DNA from: Coriobacteriia bacterium
Lineage (GTDB): Bacteria > Actinomycetota > Coriobacteriia > Anaerosomatales > JAAXUF01
Direction of reading: 5' to 3'
Length of the DNA stretch: 64,000 bases
Assembly (NCBI GenBank): GCA_013336165.1
Contig: JAAXUF010000004.1
Coordinates: forward strand, 1 to 64,000
Part shown: positions 3,966-43,627 of the stretch, piece after piece
Numbering within the stretch: the first letter of the stretch is position 1
How the letters are laid out: every line of letters begins with the position of its first letter
The notes under the pieces: generated by a model
Told to the model about the DNA's origin: nothing
The model's database searches: none
The model's input: the letters and a program-made list of their open reading frames with translations, nothing else
Position numbers and translations under genes: made by a program

Positions 3966-4032
3966 GATTACCTCCAAAACAGTAGTGGCGAGCCACAACT
4001 GCGGCCCGCCACATGAGTTCGCGGCCTTGCTC

Positions 4033-7493: not shown

Positions 7494-10400
7494 CTACGTG
7501 TCGTTGCGAACGAAGTCGATAAACTTCGGCACCAGATACGGAATCAGCTGCGGCAGGTACGTCGGCATGAGCGCATCCATCGTCTTAGGCAGCAAGTCAG
7601 GCATGAGCGCTTCCATATCCTCCGGCATCGGTCCAATGAATTCCTGGACTGCGGCGATCAGATCGGGCATCACCTTACCGAGTATCCCGGGTGCCAACAT
7701 CGGGAACAACGCAGGCATCATCTTCTCCATCAAGGAAAGTCCGCCTGGCACGTGCTTCATTGCAAGCATCATCGGTTTCATGCCTGCAGGCATCGAGTCC
7801 AGCATCTGCGGGAAGACCCTCGTCATCAGCTGGGCCATTTCCTTGGGCGCCATCAACCTGATGAACTTGTCGAAGAAACTCCACATGTAGGTCGCATTGG
7901 ATGAACTGGATGCGATGTCATAACCCGCCGCCTGCGCCACGATCCGCGCAAGATCGTCAACCTTCAGATCCAGCCCGCGCTTGTCGACGCTGTCCCGAAG
8001 CTGGACTTGGCAGCACGGACATGCGGCGATAACGGTGTCGGCACCGGCATCGATCGCCTCCTGGAGCCGGTCGCCGCCGATGATGGGAGCCACATCGATT
8101 TCACCGATGAGAGTCATAACCGACCCACAGCACTTGCCGTCTTCACGGTTGTGTTCCATCTCGACGTAATCGACACCCGGAATAGCGGCAAGCATCGTCC
8201 TTGGAGGTTCGTAGATGCCCTGAGCACGCCCGAGATGGCAGGAGTCGTGGAAGGTGAGGGTACCCGGAACGGCATTCTTCAACTCGAGACGGCCATCCGC
8301 AACAGCTTCAGCAACGAGCTCGGAGTAGTGCTTCACTTCGAAGTCATACTCATCGCCGCGCTCCGCGGCCAAGTTTGCATAGAACTCCTTCCAAACAAGC
8401 CCGCACGCAGGACACGATGTGACAATCGTCTTTGCACCGCGCTTCTTGGCCTCGCCGGTGTTGTGGCGGTATATCTCCTCAAACAGGTCCCATTTGCCGG
8501 CCATTTTCATCGGAATGCCACAGCACGCCTCGTCGGTACCCATGTACGCGATGTCGTATCCCGAGTCTGTGAGCAGTCGTATCGACGCCTCGGCGATGTC
8601 CTTCTCAACGAAGCTTGCGGTACAACCTGCGAAGTAGAGGATCGGTCCCTTGTCTTTCAGCTTGGGCTTCATGTCCTCAGGAACCCAGTCGGCACGGTGC
8701 TCGGCCTTTCCGGCCCAGATATCGCGCTCTCCCCGTAACGAAGCAGCCATCATTTCGAAGGGCGGGAACGTTCCCCTCTTCTCCTCGTTGATGAGCTTGC
8801 CACGCAGTTCCATCCAGTTGTGCTCGATCGGCAACTGCACCTGGCAGCGCGTGTTGCAGACCTCGCACGTGGTGCACACCAGAATCGTGTCGATCGCCTT
8901 TCGATCCCACTTCTGCCGACCCTCGATCACCTCACGGATGAACGCGTACTTGCCGCGCGGTGACTGTGACTCCCAGCCTCGGCTTGAATACTGATCGCAT
9001 GTTGAGACGCAGTAGCCGCACCGCGCGCACGCATACGCCATGAACGCCACATCACCGGGTATTCCGTTCATCTCCTTCGCGAGATCACCGGGACCGGCGG
9101 GGGCCTTCGCGGCGTTCGCGATCGGCCGTATGATCGGCTCCAATGCACTCGCTGCGCCCATCAGCACATCAAGTGCGCCAAACCCAAACACCTTGCCTGG
9201 GTTCATGAGATTGCGCGGATCGATCTTCCGCTTGTAGTCGCGCAGTGCGCGAACCTTCTTCTCTCCCAAGACGTCTTCGGCCTCAAACCGGAAGTACAGG
9301 CCTGTTGAGTACGCCGACCCTCCGTGGGCCTTTGCGATCCGGATGACCGACAAGGACAGCGCGAAGGCCATGTTGAAGTTGAATGTCCGCTCGTCATGCG
9401 GGATGAAGCCGAGAAGGACGACGTGGTCACCTTTCGCAACCATGCCTTCCAGTACGAACGGTTGCTTGATCTTGTCGGCGATCTCTCCGAGCACGGCAGA
9501 GAGCTGGTCGACCGGCACGACGACTTCGGTCGGGATGATCGATGGTCCGATGCGCTTGAGTCGCATGGGAGCGAAGCGCTGGTCCCATTCATGCTCGGCG
9601 ATTGCAGTGTCAAGTTCGGTGCCGCCCACAGTTGCCACGATCGCATGCAGCGCTGCATCGATCGCCGAGTGCCGAGACACAGGATACGCGACCAGGAGCA
9701 AATAGGTCTCAGGAAGCTCCGGCTCGAAGAGCTGATGCTGCAACTCGTATGGATGCCCGTGACGATGCGGCAGCCGCTTCTTGAGGCGAGACGACTCCGG
9801 ATTCAGGAAGGTGATCGACCAGATCGGAACGTTCTTCGCCGAGATCTGCGCGACCCCTCGTGCAAGCGAGTCCGCGTCAGGAAACGCTATCAGGCGATGA
9901 ACCTCGTCCTCAAGCGGCCTGACCTTGAAGGTGACCTCGGTGATGATCCCGGTGATACCCTCGGCATCAGCGATGTAGTCCAACAACTCCCCGCCTGCGA
10001 ACTCCTTGACTTCGCCACTAGGCAGCACGACTCTCGCACTCACGACGTTGTCCTTGAAAGCTCCGTACTCATAGCTCCCAAAGCCGCTACCACCCTGCGC
10101 AAGCCATCCAGCGACAGAGGAACTTGAGTGGGAAGACGGGTAGAGCCTCAGCGCGAGCCCGCGCTTGGCGATCTCGGCTTCGACCCGTTCCCAGATTGCG
10201 CCTGCCTGCACTCGAACGGTAGACGCGGAAACGTCGACCTCGAGTACCTGCTGCATGCTCGCCAAGGAGACGACGATTGCGCCTCTCCGGGGAAGTGCGC
10301 CGCCATAGCCGCTCGTGGACCAGCCACGGGGAGTCAGCTGCCACCCCTCGTTCACCGCAGCTTGTGCCAACTTCACGATCTGCGTTTCGTCCTTCGGCCG

Positions 10401-10565
10401 CACAACAGCGCCGGCGATTCCGGCCGGGACGAGGGGTTTGACCAACCTCGGCATGGCCCCTATGTCGAATGAATACATAGACCGCTCGCGCAGGTCAGTT
10501 CGGACTCGCTTGTCGCCGAAGATCGATTTCAACGACTCCTCAACGCGCTTGGGCACTGCTGCCAT
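7494..10565 (-). CDS. FAD-linked oxidase / Fe-S / double CCG-domain oxidoreductase
   Basis: A 1,023-residue fusion. Residues 30-200 form a FAD_binding_4 (GlcD/VAO) domain with PRGWSTSGYGGALP and GWLAQGGSGFGSYEYG. Residues to about 480 form the FAD oxidase C-terminal domain ending in DPRNLMNPGKVFGFG. Two [4Fe-4S] motifs follow, CARCGYCVSTC and CTTCEVCNTRC. Two CCG (HdrB/GlpC-type) domains follow, the first with CCGIP and CPACG, the second with CCGS and CPCC. The last 120 residues are Met/Pro-rich. The plan matches D-lactate/glycolate dehydrogenases joined to their Fe-S subunit; the substrate is unknown. The ATG at 10565 replaces a longer frame with no ribosome-binding site. See the operator at 10649-10679 for regulation. 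Confidence 0.88.
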   Translation of the reverse strand: MAAVPKRVEESLKSIFGDKRVRTDLRERSMYSFDIGAMPRLVKPLVPAGIAGAVVRPKDETQIVKLAQAAVNEGWQLTPRGWSTSGYGGALPRRGAIVVSLASMQQVLEVDVSASTVRVQAGAIWERVEAEIAKRGLALRLYPSSHSSSSVAGWLAQGGSGFGSYEYGAFKDNVVSARVVLPSGEVKEFAGGELLDYIADAEGITGIITEVTFKVRPLEDEVHRLIAFPDADSLARGVAQISAKNVPIWSITFLNPESSRLKKRLPHRHGHPYELQHQLFEPELPETYLLLVAYPVSRHSAIDAALHAIVATVGGTELDTAIAEHEWDQRFAPMRLKRIGPSIIPTEVVVPVDQLSAVLGEIADKIKQPFVLEGMVAKGDHVVLLGFIPHDERTFNFNMAFALSLSVIRIAKAHGGSAYSTGLYFRFEAEDVLGEKKVRALRDYKRKIDPRNLMNPGKVFGFGALDVLMGAASALEPIIRPIANAAKAPAGPGDLAKEMNGIPGDVAFMAYACARCGYCVSTCDQYSSRGWESQSPRGKYAFIREVIEGRQKWDRKAIDTILVCTTCEVCNTRCQVQLPIEHNWMELRGKLINEEKRGTFPPFEMMAASLRGERDIWAGKAEHRADWVPEDMKPKLKDKGPILYFAGCTASFVEKDIAEASIRLLTDSGYDIAYMGTDEACCGIPMKMAGKWDLFEEIYRHNTGEAKKRGAKTIVTSCPACGLVWKEFYANLAAERGDEYDFEVKHYSELVAEAVADGRLELKNAVPGTLTFHDSCHLGRAQGIYEPPRTMLAAIPGVDYVEMEHNREDGKCCGSVMTLIGEIDVAPIIGGDRLQEAIDAGADTVIAACPCCQVQLRDSVDKRGLDLKVDDLARIVAQAAGYDIASSSSNATYMWSFFDKFIRLMAPKEMAQLMTRVFPQMLDSMPAGMKPMMLAMKHVPGGLSLMEKMMPALFPMLAPGILGKVMPDLIAAVQEFIGPMPEDMEALMPDLLPKTMDALMPTYLPQLIPYLVPKFIDFVRNDT

Positions 10566-10648
10566 CCCTGTCGCTTCCTCTCGTCTATTCTGATCCGACC
10601 GGCCGCAGCTGCGAACACGATCGAAACGCACACTGCTCCATAGCAAAC

Positions 10649-10679
10649 ATTATACCCCTATGGGTATTTCTGATGTCAA
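10649..10679 (-). promoter_or_regulatory. Sigma-70 promoter with CsoR/MerR-like dyad inside a 19-bp spacer
   Basis: On the minus strand TTGACA (10679-10674) and TATAAT (10654-10649), both perfect consensus hexamers, are separated by 19 bp instead of 17. The spacer holds the dyad ATACCC-CTAT-GGGTAT (10652-10667), which overlaps the -10 box. It lies 84 bp upstream of the flavin/Fe-S oxidoreductase start. The dyad resembles the G/C-tract operators of CsoR-type repressors and the one at 41997-42015; over-long spacers are also typical of MerR-type activation. Confidence 0.75.
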
Positions 10680-14986: not shown

Positions 14987-16453
14987 CTAGGCGAAGTCGA
15001 TGCCCAGATCGGCAAGCACCTTGGCGGCTGCCCGCTCGCCGGACTCGATGCAGTTCGGTATCCCGACCCCACGATAGCCGCCTCCGGCAAGCGCGAGTCC
15101 AGGAATCGCCGAGGCGCGCTCCTCGATAAGAGCCACACGGTTCAGGTGGCCGATCGTGTACTGCGGCATCCCGCCATTCCAGCGGAAAACACGAGAGAAT
15201 ATCGGCTTTGCTGCGGGTTTGACTCCAAGCAGTGACCGAAACTCCGACAGGACCGTCTGGACGAGTTGCTCGTCGCTCTCCTCCATGATGACCTGGTTGT
15301 GAGGCCCGCCGACGAACCCGCGCAGCAGAACCCACCCTTTCGGTGCACGTCCCGGCCACTTGGTCGATGAGTACGTCGCCGCCATGAGCGCCCTCTCTTC
15401 GACAAGCGGGCATAAGACGCCGAACGCGTTCAGATCGATCCCGATCTCATCTTCGCGAAAGGCCACCGAGACGGTCGCCGAGGAGCTCGTGGGGATCTGC
15501 GCAAGCGCACCAGCGAGCCGGGCGTCGAACTCGCGCACAAGATCTTCCGCCGCCCACACCTCGGTGGCGATGATCACGGCGTCTGCAGTCTCCATGCTGC
15601 CGTCGGATAGCATAGCGGTCCACACACCGTTGGCATCCCGAGCAAGCCCCGTGACCTTTACGCCCATGCGGATGCGCCCGCGACCGGCTTCATCGGTGAG
15701 GGCATCGGTGAACTGCTGCATGCCTTCGTTGAAGGACATGAAGAACGTCTTGGGTTTCGCACCAGGCACCGGCGGGTGTTCTCGGCGCATCTGCTCGGCT
15801 GTTTTGCGCTGCGCCAAGAAGCCGCGGATCATGCAGCCGTACTTCTGCTCCATCTCCAGCAAGCTCGGAAACGTAGCGGCGAGAGACATGACCGCTGGAT
15901 CCGATGCGTGCACACCGCCTACGATCGGCTCAGCGAGCCGGTCGAGGATCTCTTTGCCCATACGGCGGTGGATGAAATGTTCCAGCGTTTCGTCGTTGAG
16001 TTCACCGATAGGAACGGCCTTCCTAGGAATGAAGAGATCCATTCCGGCACGCAGTTTTCCGCGCCAAGAGAAGAGGCCTGTGGTGGCGAAAGGCCAGAAC
16101 TTGGTGGGAGCGAACTGCATCACGCCATCCGGCATGGAGTAGAGACGGCCGCGCTTGACGATAAGAGTCTTCTTGCGGGAATCGTCTGTGGGAAGCTCTT
16201 CGTCAAAGACGCCGATCTCACGCGCGAGGCGGTGTACGGCAGGCTTACTCGAAAGGAACGTGTCCGAGCCGCCGTCGACAATGAACGTTCCGGCGGCGGT
16301 CTCAACCTTCTCAGTGACGATTTTGCCGCCGATTCGGTGATCCTTCTCAAGGACGATGAACTCCAAATCGCACCCCGCCTCGACGGCTCGACGCATCTTC
16401 AGCGCCGCGCCCAGCCCTGCGGCACCTGCGCCAATCACGATTACTCTCTTCAT
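14987..16453 (-). CDS. cgoX: Coproporphyrinogen III / protoporphyrinogen oxidase (HemY/CgoX type)
   Basis: A 488-residue flavoprotein of the Gram-positive HemY family. VIVIGAGAAGLGAALKM at residues 4-20 is the FAD GxGxxG fold, EKDHRIGGK follows near residue 36, and GGYRGVGIPNCIESG near residue 460 is the C-terminal FAD motif. It oxidises the porphyrinogen ring with O2 in Gram-positives. It is the last gene of hemE-hemH-cgoX and overlaps hemH by 4 bases. Whether it works on copro- or protoporphyrinogen depends on whether HemQ is present, which is not in the window. Oxygen-dependent activity in an otherwise anaerobic-looking genome is notable. Confidence 0.92.
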   Translation of the reverse strand: MKRVIVIGAGAAGLGAALKMRRAVEAGCDLEFIVLEKDHRIGGKIVTEKVETAAGTFIVDGGSDTFLSSKPAVHRLAREIGVFDEELPTDDSRKKTLIVKRGRLYSMPDGVMQFAPTKFWPFATTGLFSWRGKLRAGMDLFIPRKAVPIGELNDETLEHFIHRRMGKEILDRLAEPIVGGVHASDPAVMSLAATFPSLLEMEQKYGCMIRGFLAQRKTAEQMRREHPPVPGAKPKTFFMSFNEGMQQFTDALTDEAGRGRIRMGVKVTGLARDANGVWTAMLSDGSMETADAVIIATEVWAAEDLVREFDARLAGALAQIPTSSSATVSVAFREDEIGIDLNAFGVLCPLVEERALMAATYSSTKWPGRAPKGWVLLRGFVGGPHNQVIMEESDEQLVQTVLSEFRSLLGVKPAAKPIFSRVFRWNGGMPQYTIGHLNRVALIEERASAIPGLALAGGGYRGVGIPNCIESGERAAAKVLADLGIDFA

Positions 16454-17373
16454 GAGCGGCTACACCTTTCTTGAAGCAGAACCTCGATTTGCCTCGCCAT
16501 CGCCAGCGTGACGCGCGGGTCGTCGTTGGGCACTGCGCATCGTGCGAACTTCAGCCCCAGGTCTCTCGCCTTGTTCGCGACGACGATATCGAGATCGAAC
16601 AGCGTCTCCATGTGGTCGGTAAGAAAGCCAATCGGGCAGACAATGACACCGTCCATAGTGCCGTCCGCCGACGCTGCCTCCATCACTGCATCCAAGCTAG
16701 GCGCAAGCCACTCCCCGGGGCGCTGGCCCTTCGACTGGTACGCGACCAGCCAAGGAACTGCTCCCAGCTTCTCGGCAACCGCCTCTGCGGTGCCGCGCAG
16801 CCCGGCGATATAGGGATCGGGTTCGGCGAGGTCTGCAACCGGCAGGCTATGCGCCGAGAAGACGATCAGTACCCGGTCGGCGGGCCCGAACGACATCAGA
16901 GTCGAGCGAGCCTCGTTTGCGAAGAACTCAGCGAACTCGCGTGTCGCCGAGACGAGCGGCGCCTCGACCACTGCGATCCCGCACTCACGCGCGGCCTCAC
17001 CCAGTGCATGCCGATACGCACCAGAAGCCGCCCGAGACTCGAACGGAGACAGCGACACGGCGATTACGCGGTCACACCCCGCTACGCTGAGTTCGGCGAC
17101 AGCCTCGCCGATGAAAGGATGCCAGTACGCCATCCCCACGCGAACCAGCATGTCGTGTCCGCTTTCACGCAACGTCCGCTCGAGCGCAGAGGCGATTTGT
17201 CGCGCGATTCCGGCGAGGGGCGACGCTCCGCCGATGGCTGCATAGTTCGCGGTAACACGCTTCACCAGCTCCGGCGAAGGCTTTCTGCCGGTAAGGTTTC
17301 GCATGAACGGCGCAATCGCATCGAGACAGTCAGGACCGCCGAAACCCATAAGCACAACACCCGTACGAGGCAT
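16450..17373 (-). CDS. hemH: Ferrochelatase (coproporphyrin-type)
   Basis: A 307-residue ferrochelatase, inserting Fe2+ into a porphyrin. The signature FSAHSLP near residue 170 carries the catalytic His, and IGFLTDHMETLFDLDI near residue 252 carries the conserved Glu. The length and lack of a C-terminal membrane anchor or Fe-S cysteines suit the soluble Gram-positive CpfC form. The ATG shares one base with the hemE stop (TGATG), and its stop overlaps cgoX by 4 bases, so all three are coupled. A diverged, membrane-bound paralogue occurs at 42392-43627. Confidence 0.93.
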   Translation of the reverse strand: MPRTGVVLMGFGGPDCLDAIAPFMRNLTGRKPSPELVKRVTANYAAIGGASPLAGIARQIASALERTLRESGHDMLVRVGMAYWHPFIGEAVAELSVAGCDRVIAVSLSPFESRAASGAYRHALGEAARECGIAVVEAPLVSATREFAEFFANEARSTLMSFGPADRVLIVFSAHSLPVADLAEPDPYIAGLRGTAEAVAEKLGAVPWLVAYQSKGQRPGEWLAPSLDAVMEAASADGTMDGVIVCPIGFLTDHMETLFDLDIVVANKARDLGLKFARCAVPNDDPRVTLAMARQIEVLLQERCSRS

Positions 17374-41991: not shown

Positions 41992-42020
41992 TTGCTGATA
42001 CCCCTAGGGGGTATCATTAT
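41992..42020 (+). promoter_or_regulatory. CsoR/CstR-type operator inside the repressor promoter
   Basis: GATACCCC-TAG-GGGGTATC (41997-42015) is a perfect 8-bp inverted repeat. It occupies the spacer between a candidate -35 TTGCTG (41992-41997) and -10 CATTAT (42015-42020), 17 bp apart, upstream of the CsoR-family gene at 42065. Such C/G-tract dyads are the known operator form of this family, so autoregulation is likely. The dyad at 10652-10667 has the same ATACCC core. Confidence 0.75.
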
Positions 42021-42064: not shown

Positions 42065-42370
42065 ATGGCTGACAACGTATCGGACCATCCCAACGTCGTC
42101 ACGAGCGAAATCGAGCGCAAGAAGATCATCAACCGGCTGCGCCGACTCGAGGGACAGATCAGGGGTCTTCAGACGATGGTTGAATCCGAGAAGGACTGCG
42201 CCTCTGTTCTAACGCAGGTCATGGCAGCGAAATCTGCTTTGAATCAGGTTGGCGTACACATCATCAGCCACAGTATGCGGGAATGCCTCACCGAAGCCGA
42301 AGTGGGGACCGCCTCCCACGACGAAGCCATCGATCGGGCCATATCCGTGTTTCTCAAGTACTCCTCCTAA
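42065..42370 (+). CDS. CsoR/FrmR-family metal- or persulfide-sensing repressor
   Basis: A 101-residue DUF156 all-helical tetrameric repressor. INRLRRLEGQIRGLQTMVES is the DNA-contact helix, the first Cys is in KDCASVLTQVMA and the second in SHSMRECLTEA. Cu-type CsoR proteins place His four residues before the second Cys; here that position is Ser and the nearest His is five before, so copper ligation may be altered. Persulfide-sensing CstR proteins keep only the two Cys. GGGG precedes the ATG. It sits divergent from EamA and 21 bp upstream of the ferrochelatase-like gene, with which it is likely co-transcribed. Confidence 0.9.
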   Translation: MADNVSDHPNVVTSEIERKKIINRLRRLEGQIRGLQTMVESEKDCASVLTQVMAAKSALNQVGVHIISHSMRECLTEAEVGTASHDEAIDRAISVFLKYSS

Positions 42371-42391: not shown

Positions 42392-43627
42392 ATGCCACAT
42401 GCCGAACTCCTATGGATCGTGCTCGCCGCAGGCGCCATCGTCTCAGGCGGCTCGCTTGTAGGACTTCTTGCCGCACGATCGGTCTCAGAGCGCGTGTTTG
42501 CCGTAGCTGGCGTCACCGGCCTCGGGATAAGCCTGTGGGCTTTTGTATCCATCATCGCCAGCTACGATCGGCTCGATGCCGTCGCGTATGCGGCAATCTT
42601 TGGTGCGGCGGGTCTTGTCGGCGGCTACGCCCTGGCATCCGCCGTCCTCGAGGGGCTGGCAACTCGTCCCAGTCGACCTCCGCTCCCGGCTGAGGTGCCC
42701 GCAGGTATCGGAAAAGGCGCTGTCATTGTGCTTGGCGAAGTCGAGCCCCCCGGCTACAGCGCCCGAATCGTCGCCGGAGCCCTGAGGGATTTGGCGAAAC
42801 AGGGTACCCTCGACCCATCCATAGCACTCCTCCCCTTCATCTTCATGGCCCAGAAGATGAGATACCGGGCACGCGGCGGCACCAGTCCCTCGGCCCACGA
42901 GCTCGATCTGCTAGCAGAACGTCTTGCCGTCACCCTCGAGCGGCACAAGAATGTCGGGTGCGTCGAATCCGCGTGGTGCCGAGGAGAGCGGGCGCTTGCA
43001 ACCGTGATTCTCAAAGCCGTCGCACAGGGCTTCCGTACGTTCACCATCGCGGAGGCTTTCATTGCCGAATCACCACAGGTAGACGCTGCGAAGCGCGAGG
43101 TCGACGCACTGCGCCTCGAATCTCTCGGCGTCACGGTCTCCTACGCACAACCCCTGTGGCATGCCGATCGCATCGCCCGGCTTGTCGCGACACGCGCAAT
43201 GGCGGCGGCCACAAACCCTTCGACCACCGGTGTCGCCCTTGTCGGTCGAGCTCAGCCGGAGAGTCTCGCTCAGGAACGTGGCGAGTTCGACACGCAGGAG
43301 ACGGCGTTTCTGCAACGCGTCCGGCTGCTGTTGACCGGCTTCGGGATCCCCGAGGCCAACATACGCATCGCTTGGATGGATTGGCGTTCCCCCGACATCA
43401 CCGGCACTCTGCGACATCTGGAGGCAATAGGGTGCGAGCGCATTGTGGTGTCCCCCGCTTGCTTCCCCTTGGACTCACTCGAGACTGCACTCGACATCCC
43501 GTTGGCCGGAAACCGGGCGCGCGTGGCTGAGACTGTGTCGATAGTCACGCTGCCTGCATGGCACGATGATCCGGGGTTCGTTGAGGCCCTGAGATCGGAT
43601 GTCGCCGACATGCTGGGATCCTCCTAG
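42392..43627 (+). CDS. Membrane-anchored ferrochelatase-like protein lacking the signature His
   Basis: A 411-residue protein. Three hydrophobic segments fill residues 5-82 (LLWIVLAAGAIVSGGSLVGL and two more). The soluble rest has a class II chelatase fold: GAVIVLGEVEPPGYSARIV near residue 110, ALVGRAQPESLAQERGEFDT near residue 285 and ACFPLDSLETALDIPL near residue 365. The last matches the hemH motif GFLTDHMETLFDLDI, keeping Glu-Thr and Asp-Ile. The signature FSAHSLP is replaced by VGRAQP, so the catalytic His is gone. Insertion of iron into a porphyrin is therefore unlikely; metal or tetrapyrrole binding is possible. It follows the CsoR-family gene by 21 bp. Confidence 0.7.
   Translation: MPHAELLWIVLAAGAIVSGGSLVGLLAARSVSERVFAVAGVTGLGISLWAFVSIIASYDRLDAVAYAAIFGAAGLVGGYALASAVLEGLATRPSRPPLPAEVPAGIGKGAVIVLGEVEPPGYSARIVAGALRDLAKQGTLDPSIALLPFIFMAQKMRYRARGGTSPSAHELDLLAERLAVTLERHKNVGCVESAWCRGERALATVILKAVAQGFRTFTIAEAFIAESPQVDAAKREVDALRLESLGVTVSYAQPLWHADRIARLVATRAMAAATNPSTTGVALVGRAQPESLAQERGEFDTQETAFLQRVRLLLTGFGIPEANIRIAWMDWRSPDITGTLRHLEAIGCERIVVSPACFPLDSLETALDIPLAGNRARVAETVSIVTLPAWHDDPGFVEALRSDVADMLGSS

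Follow-up and report, generated by a model that had tools for sequence, protein, structure and literature searches.

A membrane-anchored pseudo-ferrochelatase in the regulon of a CsoR-family repressor of Coriobacteriia and its possible role in tetrapyrrole binding

The window analyzed here, a 64,000-nucleotide stretch of a Coriobacteriia contig, carries a true ferrochelatase gene and a second, unusual relative of it, and the question raised by the locus is what the second protein does. The true ferrochelatase (HemH, positions 16450-17373), recognized as such in an earlier, sequence-only reading of the window, contains the AHSLP and HMETL motifs and is encoded beside what we take, from their sequences, to be hemE and an oxidase-like gene; a HemE query found clear counterparts of the former. 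The second protein, here called pseudo-ferrochelatase, had been described in the same reading as a ferrochelatase paralogue that lost the catalytic His, gained three N-terminal membrane helices and might serve as a sensor, metallochaperone or tetrapyrrole-binding protein. Features of the locus are listed in Table 1.

Table 1. Position, strand and basis of the features discussed (numbered from the first nucleotide of the window)
Feature	Position	Strand	Basis
Operator ATACCCCTAGGGGGTAT, 5' of the csoR/pseudo-ferrochelatase pair	41998..42014	.	Palindrome match
Second operator ATACCCCTATGGGTAT, 5' of the FAD/CCG iron-sulfur protein gene (7497-10646, -)	10652..10667	.	Palindrome match
CstR-like member of the CsoR repressor family, with two Cys and without the copper-ligand His	42065..42370	+	Pfam Trns_repr_metal, 89.6 bits; alignment to solved CsoR-family chains
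Membrane-anchored pseudo-ferrochelatase, 411 aa	42392..43627	+	ORF; Pfam Ferrochelatase and CbiX above cut-off; structure model; orthologues
N-terminal three-helix part (residues 2-27, 30-58, 61-88), probably transmembrane	42395..42655	+	DSSP of model
Ferrochelatase-fold domain (residues 105-411)	42704..43624	+	VIA-align, hhalign
RYRARGGTSP, aligned with the porphyrin loop R45-Y46-xx-IGG-x-S53 of CpfC	42860..42889	+	HMM alignment to LmCpfC chains
Arg286, position of the ferrochelatase catalytic His	43247..43249	+	Profile alignment; His in 20/57 orthologues
Glu364, position of the ferrochelatase catalytic Glu	43481..43483	+	Profile alignment; Glu in 9/57 orthologues

Fold, anchor and distribution of pseudo-ferrochelatase

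Pseudo-ferrochelatase was matched by the Pfam models Ferrochelatase (PF00762; 34.1 bits against a cut-off of 27, residues 155-404) and CbiX (31 bits against a cut-off of 22, residues 321-401), and was the sole CbiX match in the window's genome; the NCBIfam ferrochelatase equivalogs were far out of reach (hemH equivalog, 15.2 bits against the 124.6 needed). An AlphaFold2 model computed from an alignment of 26 sequences (mean pLDDT 94.4, pTM 0.89) consisted of the three N-terminal helices followed by an alternating alpha/beta domain. When this model was searched with Foldseek, the top solved structures were B. subtilis ferrochelatase and LmCpfC (1doz, E 5.3e-13). VIA-align gave Z scores of 24.8-28.1 across 286-302 residues for ferrochelatases and of ~19-21 for SirB, CbiK, FetB and CbiX, and hhalign of a 27-orthologue profile to the 15 HemH proteins sampled from the order gave a probability of 99.1 (E 4.5e-19, 296 columns). 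The HemH sample comprised 16 stretches, of which L193 gave no ORF by motif search, and L188 was left out of HemH set A5. Together, these comparisons settle the predicted fold as that of a ferrochelatase more than that of CbiX. The structure prediction against HemH and CbiX that the sequence-only reading had proposed thus gave no unrelated fold, and both the paralogy and the added helices were borne out. Mean numbers of Lys plus Arg over 57 orthologues were 1.9 in loop 1, 1.0 in loop 2 and 2.1 past helix 3; because loop 1 and the stretch past helix 3 are the richer in these residues, the soluble chelatase domain probably lies on the cytoplasmic side.

Orthologues conserved as proteins were present in 59 of 61 relatives. 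Excluding G049 and G026, where the gene lies near contig ends, left the 57 orthologues used throughout, with start codons picked by script. A class-wide search of 296 genomes returned, among the matches listed, a long family match in 67 of 69 genomes of the same order; the exceptions were G017, with a HemH-like match only, and G038, with none. No full-length copy was found outside the order in these 296 genomes, only short, weak matches of at most ~31 bits. Among the matches listed for 396 genomes of the phylum, the full-length family was likewise confined to four genomes from the order, all others scoring at most 37.4 bits. Scanning 84,980 species with patterns yielded 29 loci, whose titles named Actinobacteria, Actinomycetes, Actinomycetota, Coriobacteriia and subgroups, including one Anaerosomatales; from these titles, the order is most likely Anaerosomatales (OPB41) of the Coriobacteriia. 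An alignment of 12 closer sequences was used for this wide scan, a single-protein scan of genome contigs having given no matches, and since the scan rests on two short patterns, absence beyond these groups is not proven. A divergent paralogue occurs in four genomes of one family (L087 5992-7245, +; L088 5992-7245, +; L089 5378-6685, +; L090 2524-3828, -), with the same three-helix and chelatase layout, HGEP in its first half, G[HY]GQP in its second, and no csoR or operator nearby. These four copies were kept separate from the orthologues.

Catalytic positions and the tetrapyrrole cleft

Hhalign placed FSAHSLP of HemH on VGRAQP of pseudo-ferrochelatase, so that the catalytic His position corresponds to Arg286, and HMETLFDLD on SLETALDIP. 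GRAQP also replaces the HGS-type motif of CbiX and SirB, whose His we take to be their metal-binding residue. Loss of the catalytic His, as previously described, therefore applies to the window copy, but not to the whole family: at position 286, 20 of the 57 orthologues have His and 12 have Glu, the rest being spread over eleven further residues, and on a tree built minus the catalytic columns His286 was lost or gained at least eight times. Similarly, LETALDI does align as the counterpart of METLFDLDI in the window protein, but its Glu is no family trait, being absent at 364 in 48 of 57. Reading the retained Glu as one half of an active site was accordingly abandoned. Both catalytic residues are invariant (15/15) in HemH of the same order. 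Where LmCpfC has its proximal Tyr (Y12), Cys and Asp each occur in 19 of 57 orthologues, in a register set by eye, the HMM alignment beginning later.

These substitutions bear on whether pseudo-ferrochelatase is still an enzyme, that is, a chelatase inserting iron or another metal into an unknown tetrapyrrole by means of residues other than the His/Glu pair, such as Cys, Asp or Glu at 116 or Glu286. His or Glu at 286 in 32 of 57 orthologues and Cys or Asp at 116 in 38 of 57 would fit such a chemistry, and since 20 orthologues keep His286, these at least may be active. Set against this, His286 is combined with an acid at 364 in only two of the 57, and 13 different residues at one position would be unusual for a catalytic site.

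The sequence-only reading did not include a further HemH motif, RYxxxGGxSP, which is better conserved than either the His or the Glu motif. R157 and Y158 (each 56/57) and S165 (37/57) fall on R45, Y46 and S53 of LmCpfC in the HMM alignment. According to the accessible part of PMC9794026, T14, R29, R45, Y46, S53 and Y124 of LmCpfC hold the four propionates of coproporphyrin, the counterparts of the conserved RY/S residues holding propionates 6 and 4. In the orthologues, the T14 position is occupied by Glu in 44 of 57, and Y124 and R29 are without a conserved counterpart in the alignment as read by eye. With only three of the six contacts kept, the protein may bind porphyrin weakly or no longer at all, and structural demands may be what preserves the loop. 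W331 and P334 (each 56/57) both fall on WLGP of HemH. R341-H342, on the other hand, is without a HemH counterpart and invariant (57/57); H342, the only invariant His and a conceivable substitute for the catalytic one, lies in the second half of the model's helix 336-345, and from this placement the pair would face away from the cleft.

An invariant pair foreign to HemH, together with persistence of the gene in genomes that lack HemE and HemH (described below), could mean that the cleft accommodates a ligand other than a tetrapyrrole, or that the domain serves the membrane part in signaling or scaffolding under thiol or persulfide stress. Considering that W331-xx-P334, RY-xxx-GG-xSP and the entire fold are those of a ferrochelatase, we regard this explanation as rather doubtful, if one to be kept in mind.

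The repressor, its operators and the heme pathway

A CsoR-family gene lies ~20 bp 5' of the pseudo-ferrochelatase gene in the window. Across the orthologous loci, csoR precedes pseudo-ferrochelatase in the same orientation at 54 of 57, a frequency on which chance juxtaposition was rejected; of the other three loci, two are in genomes without csoR anywhere and one (L050) begins at a contig end. To assign residues, the repressor was aligned with S. lividans CsoR (4adz). C45 and C74 were present in 54 of 54 copies, and position 70, the place of the copper-ligand His, was Ser in 46, Ala in eight and His in none. Two chains annotated as CsoR in the PDB, 7mq1 (which we take to be CstR) and 7mq3, have Asn or Ala at this place. 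Since the Cys-His-Cys copper site is absent from all 54 copies, copper sensing was set aside. Of the metal/thiol repressor originally proposed, the thiol type agrees with the two Cys and the metal type is doubtful. CstR-type regulators govern rhodanese, thioredoxin and other sulfur genes (accessible parts of PMC9918477 and PMC10318464), and in view of such targets and the missing His our guess is that a sulfur or thiol effector is likelier than copper.

Each of 59 genomes out of 61 contained between 2 and 10 copies of the palindrome ATACCC-N4/5-GGGTAT; a control pattern was found in 0 of 61. An exact site accompanied 49 of 54 csoR copies within the stretch scanned. Within 250 bp 5' of pseudo-ferrochelatase, exact operators were found at 44 of 57 loci, or 45 when one mismatch was allowed (0 of 1140 shuffled upstream stretches), and once a directly upstream csoR and its operator were included, 51 of 57 loci were covered. 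Regulon genes follow 128 of 134 distinct operator sites in the loci analyzed, namely csoR, cation efflux, pseudo-ferrochelatase, thioredoxin, DUF302-like, CcdA-type (DsbD_TM), rhodanese, SBF transporter, YjgF/RidA and FAD/CCG genes and what is presumably a chemoreceptor-like gene; since the reference proteins came from the same loci as were counted, this figure describes the regulon rather than tests it. At most loci, an oppositely oriented DUF302-like gene (below the Pfam cut-off) and a thioredoxin gene separate csoR from pseudo-ferrochelatase. Both are gone from between the two in the window, where csoR is directly upstream, and the thioredoxin gene of this genome is on another contig (L165 3668-4108, -), with its own operator at 4027, beside a cation-efflux gene. 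Induction of pseudo-ferrochelatase and thioredoxin is probably under the joint control of a repressor that senses sulfur. None of the operator neighbors was recognized as a heme gene, and G013 and G027 keep pseudo-ferrochelatase without csoR and without operators.

Two further operators were observed in the window's genome. One, at 10652-10667, is ~90 bp upstream of the probable start of a FAD-binding/CCG iron-sulfur protein of 1,000 residues, which may therefore belong to the same regulon. A YjgF/RidA-type gene (L164 3446-4012, -) is behind an exact operator at 3988.

The regulon also bears on a metal-binding role, in which pseudo-ferrochelatase would bind Fe, Zn or Co, or act as a metallochaperone, in partnership with the neighboring cation-efflux (CDF) transporter. 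The CDF gene and csoR share 41 of the 134 operator places, and many orthologues have Cys at 116, 196, 348 or 357. Nevertheless, no conserved metal-type residue was present at the cleft positions examined in the 57 orthologues, the CDF gene of the window's genome is located elsewhere, beside thioredoxin, and the repressor does not belong to the metal-ligand type, all of which make this role improbable. Decay into a functionless paralogue, as the drift of the catalytic residues might indicate, is scarcely credible: the 67 of 69 order genomes that keep the gene do so nearly always at full length and without stops, and invariant residues and operators are retained.

To relate pseudo-ferrochelatase to heme synthesis, we compared genomes with and without HemH. 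Ten genomes, all at least 90% complete (G030, G039, G040, G045, G050, G051, G052, G056, G058 and G059), had no PF00762 match other than pseudo-ferrochelatase, less complete genomes with partial HemH matches or none, such as G010, G019, G022 and G023, having been left out; the PF00762 matches were to the family plus the paralogue in G040, and there were none at all in G050. All ten lacked HemE, which was found in each of 11 further genomes examined, and all 21 had cytochrome c assembly proteins (PF01578). Nonetheless, pseudo-ferrochelatase was kept in 10 of 10, with Glu (7), His (2) or Ala (1) at position 286. Pseudo-ferrochelatase is therefore not tied to the HemE-HemH branch, and its retention makes copro- or protoporphyrin itself a less likely ligand. 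Heme would be the simplest tetrapyrrole common to both groups of genomes and is presumably still needed for cytochromes c. Absence of HemE and HemH alongside cytochrome c assembly genes suggests another heme route in the ten. The window's genome (G000) has HemE and HemH, but a search of it for coproheme decarboxylase (ChdC, PF06778) gave no match.

These ten genomes also offer a point in favor of an enzyme, since the family (plus the paralogue in G040) is the only ferrochelatase homologue found in them. Yet replacement of HemH as ferrochelatase was put low, because HemE is missing from the same genomes and the classical substrate is probably absent. Together with the drift at position 286, this leads us to consider retained enzyme activity unlikely.

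Proposed function and comparison with known systems

The stronger finding is that an order-wide pseudo-ferrochelatase unites membrane anchorage and a thiol-type regulon with a cleft that is conserved and a catalytic site that drifts. Tetrapyrrole binding, with heme as the foremost candidate ligand, ranks first against a sensor and a metallochaperone, and we tentatively favor, while stopping short of even odds, a non-catalytic, membrane-tethered binder of a tetrapyrrole, most likely heme, induced by sulfur or thiol stress. In such a scheme, a ferrochelatase domain on a three-helix tether would have given up metal insertion and retained the tetrapyrrole cleft. The CstR-like repressor would occupy the ATACCC-N4/5-GGGTAT operators until its thiols were modified by persulfide or a similar agent; on release, pseudo-ferrochelatase would be made with thioredoxin and other thiol- or sulfur-handling proteins. 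On the inner side of the membrane, it could then bind heme, or a different tetrapyrrole that all these cells share, and buffer it or pass it on, e.g., to cytochrome c assembly. A broader proposal, that the whole order possesses a reactive sulfur-induced family for holding and handing over heme (or coproheme or siroheme), which protects or reroutes heme as sulfide rises whatever the heme pathway, is appreciably less likely.

It is poorly understood how bacteria convey heme from the site of its synthesis to acceptors in the membrane while avoiding toxicity, and, to our knowledge, there are few dedicated bacterial heme carriers. Repeated loss of the catalytic His, near-order-wide retention and a thiol-type repressor single out pseudo-ferrochelatase as a defined candidate for this role, and it might connect sulfide directly with heme handling. 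Multiheme cytochromes, and the use of sulfur, thiosulfate or Fe(III), are documented for cultured members of the order (accessible part of PMC9686372).

Among known systems, the repressor resembles the thiol sensors of the CstR/CsoR group (S. aureus CstR, B. licheniformis YrkD and T. thermophilus TTHA1953) in having two Cys and no copper His, and its regulon resembles theirs in its thioredoxin and rhodanese-type targets; a ferrochelatase homologue, by contrast, is not named among CstR targets in the accessible parts of PMC9918477 and PMC10318464. On ferrochelatase-like proteins of Coriobacteriia, or on such proteins accompanied by CsoR, our search of the openly accessible literature found no relevant publication. 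With HemH/CpfC (LmCpfC and B. subtilis HemH), pseudo-ferrochelatase shares the whole two-domain fold, the RYxxxGGxSP loop, the WxxP turn and the LET...D segment, but it is only 12-18% identical to the solved chains, has three N-terminal helices, mostly lacks the His/Glu pair and belongs to a thiol-type regulon outside the heme operon. SirB, CbiK and CbiX are of the same superfamily, as reflected in the CbiX Pfam match, but are structurally less similar and have the HGSR-type His that is missing here. Ferrochelatase of plants and cyanobacteria has a C-terminal CAB membrane segment and an intact active site; it is thus also a membrane-anchored domain, with the anchor at the opposite end from that of pseudo-ferrochelatase. 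FetB of Porphyromonas gingivalis (PDB 9b86; profile E 0.0013, Z 19.3) is less similar to pseudo-ferrochelatase than HemH is and differs in its regulation, but, by its entry title, it likewise offers a chelatase fold used for heme binding.
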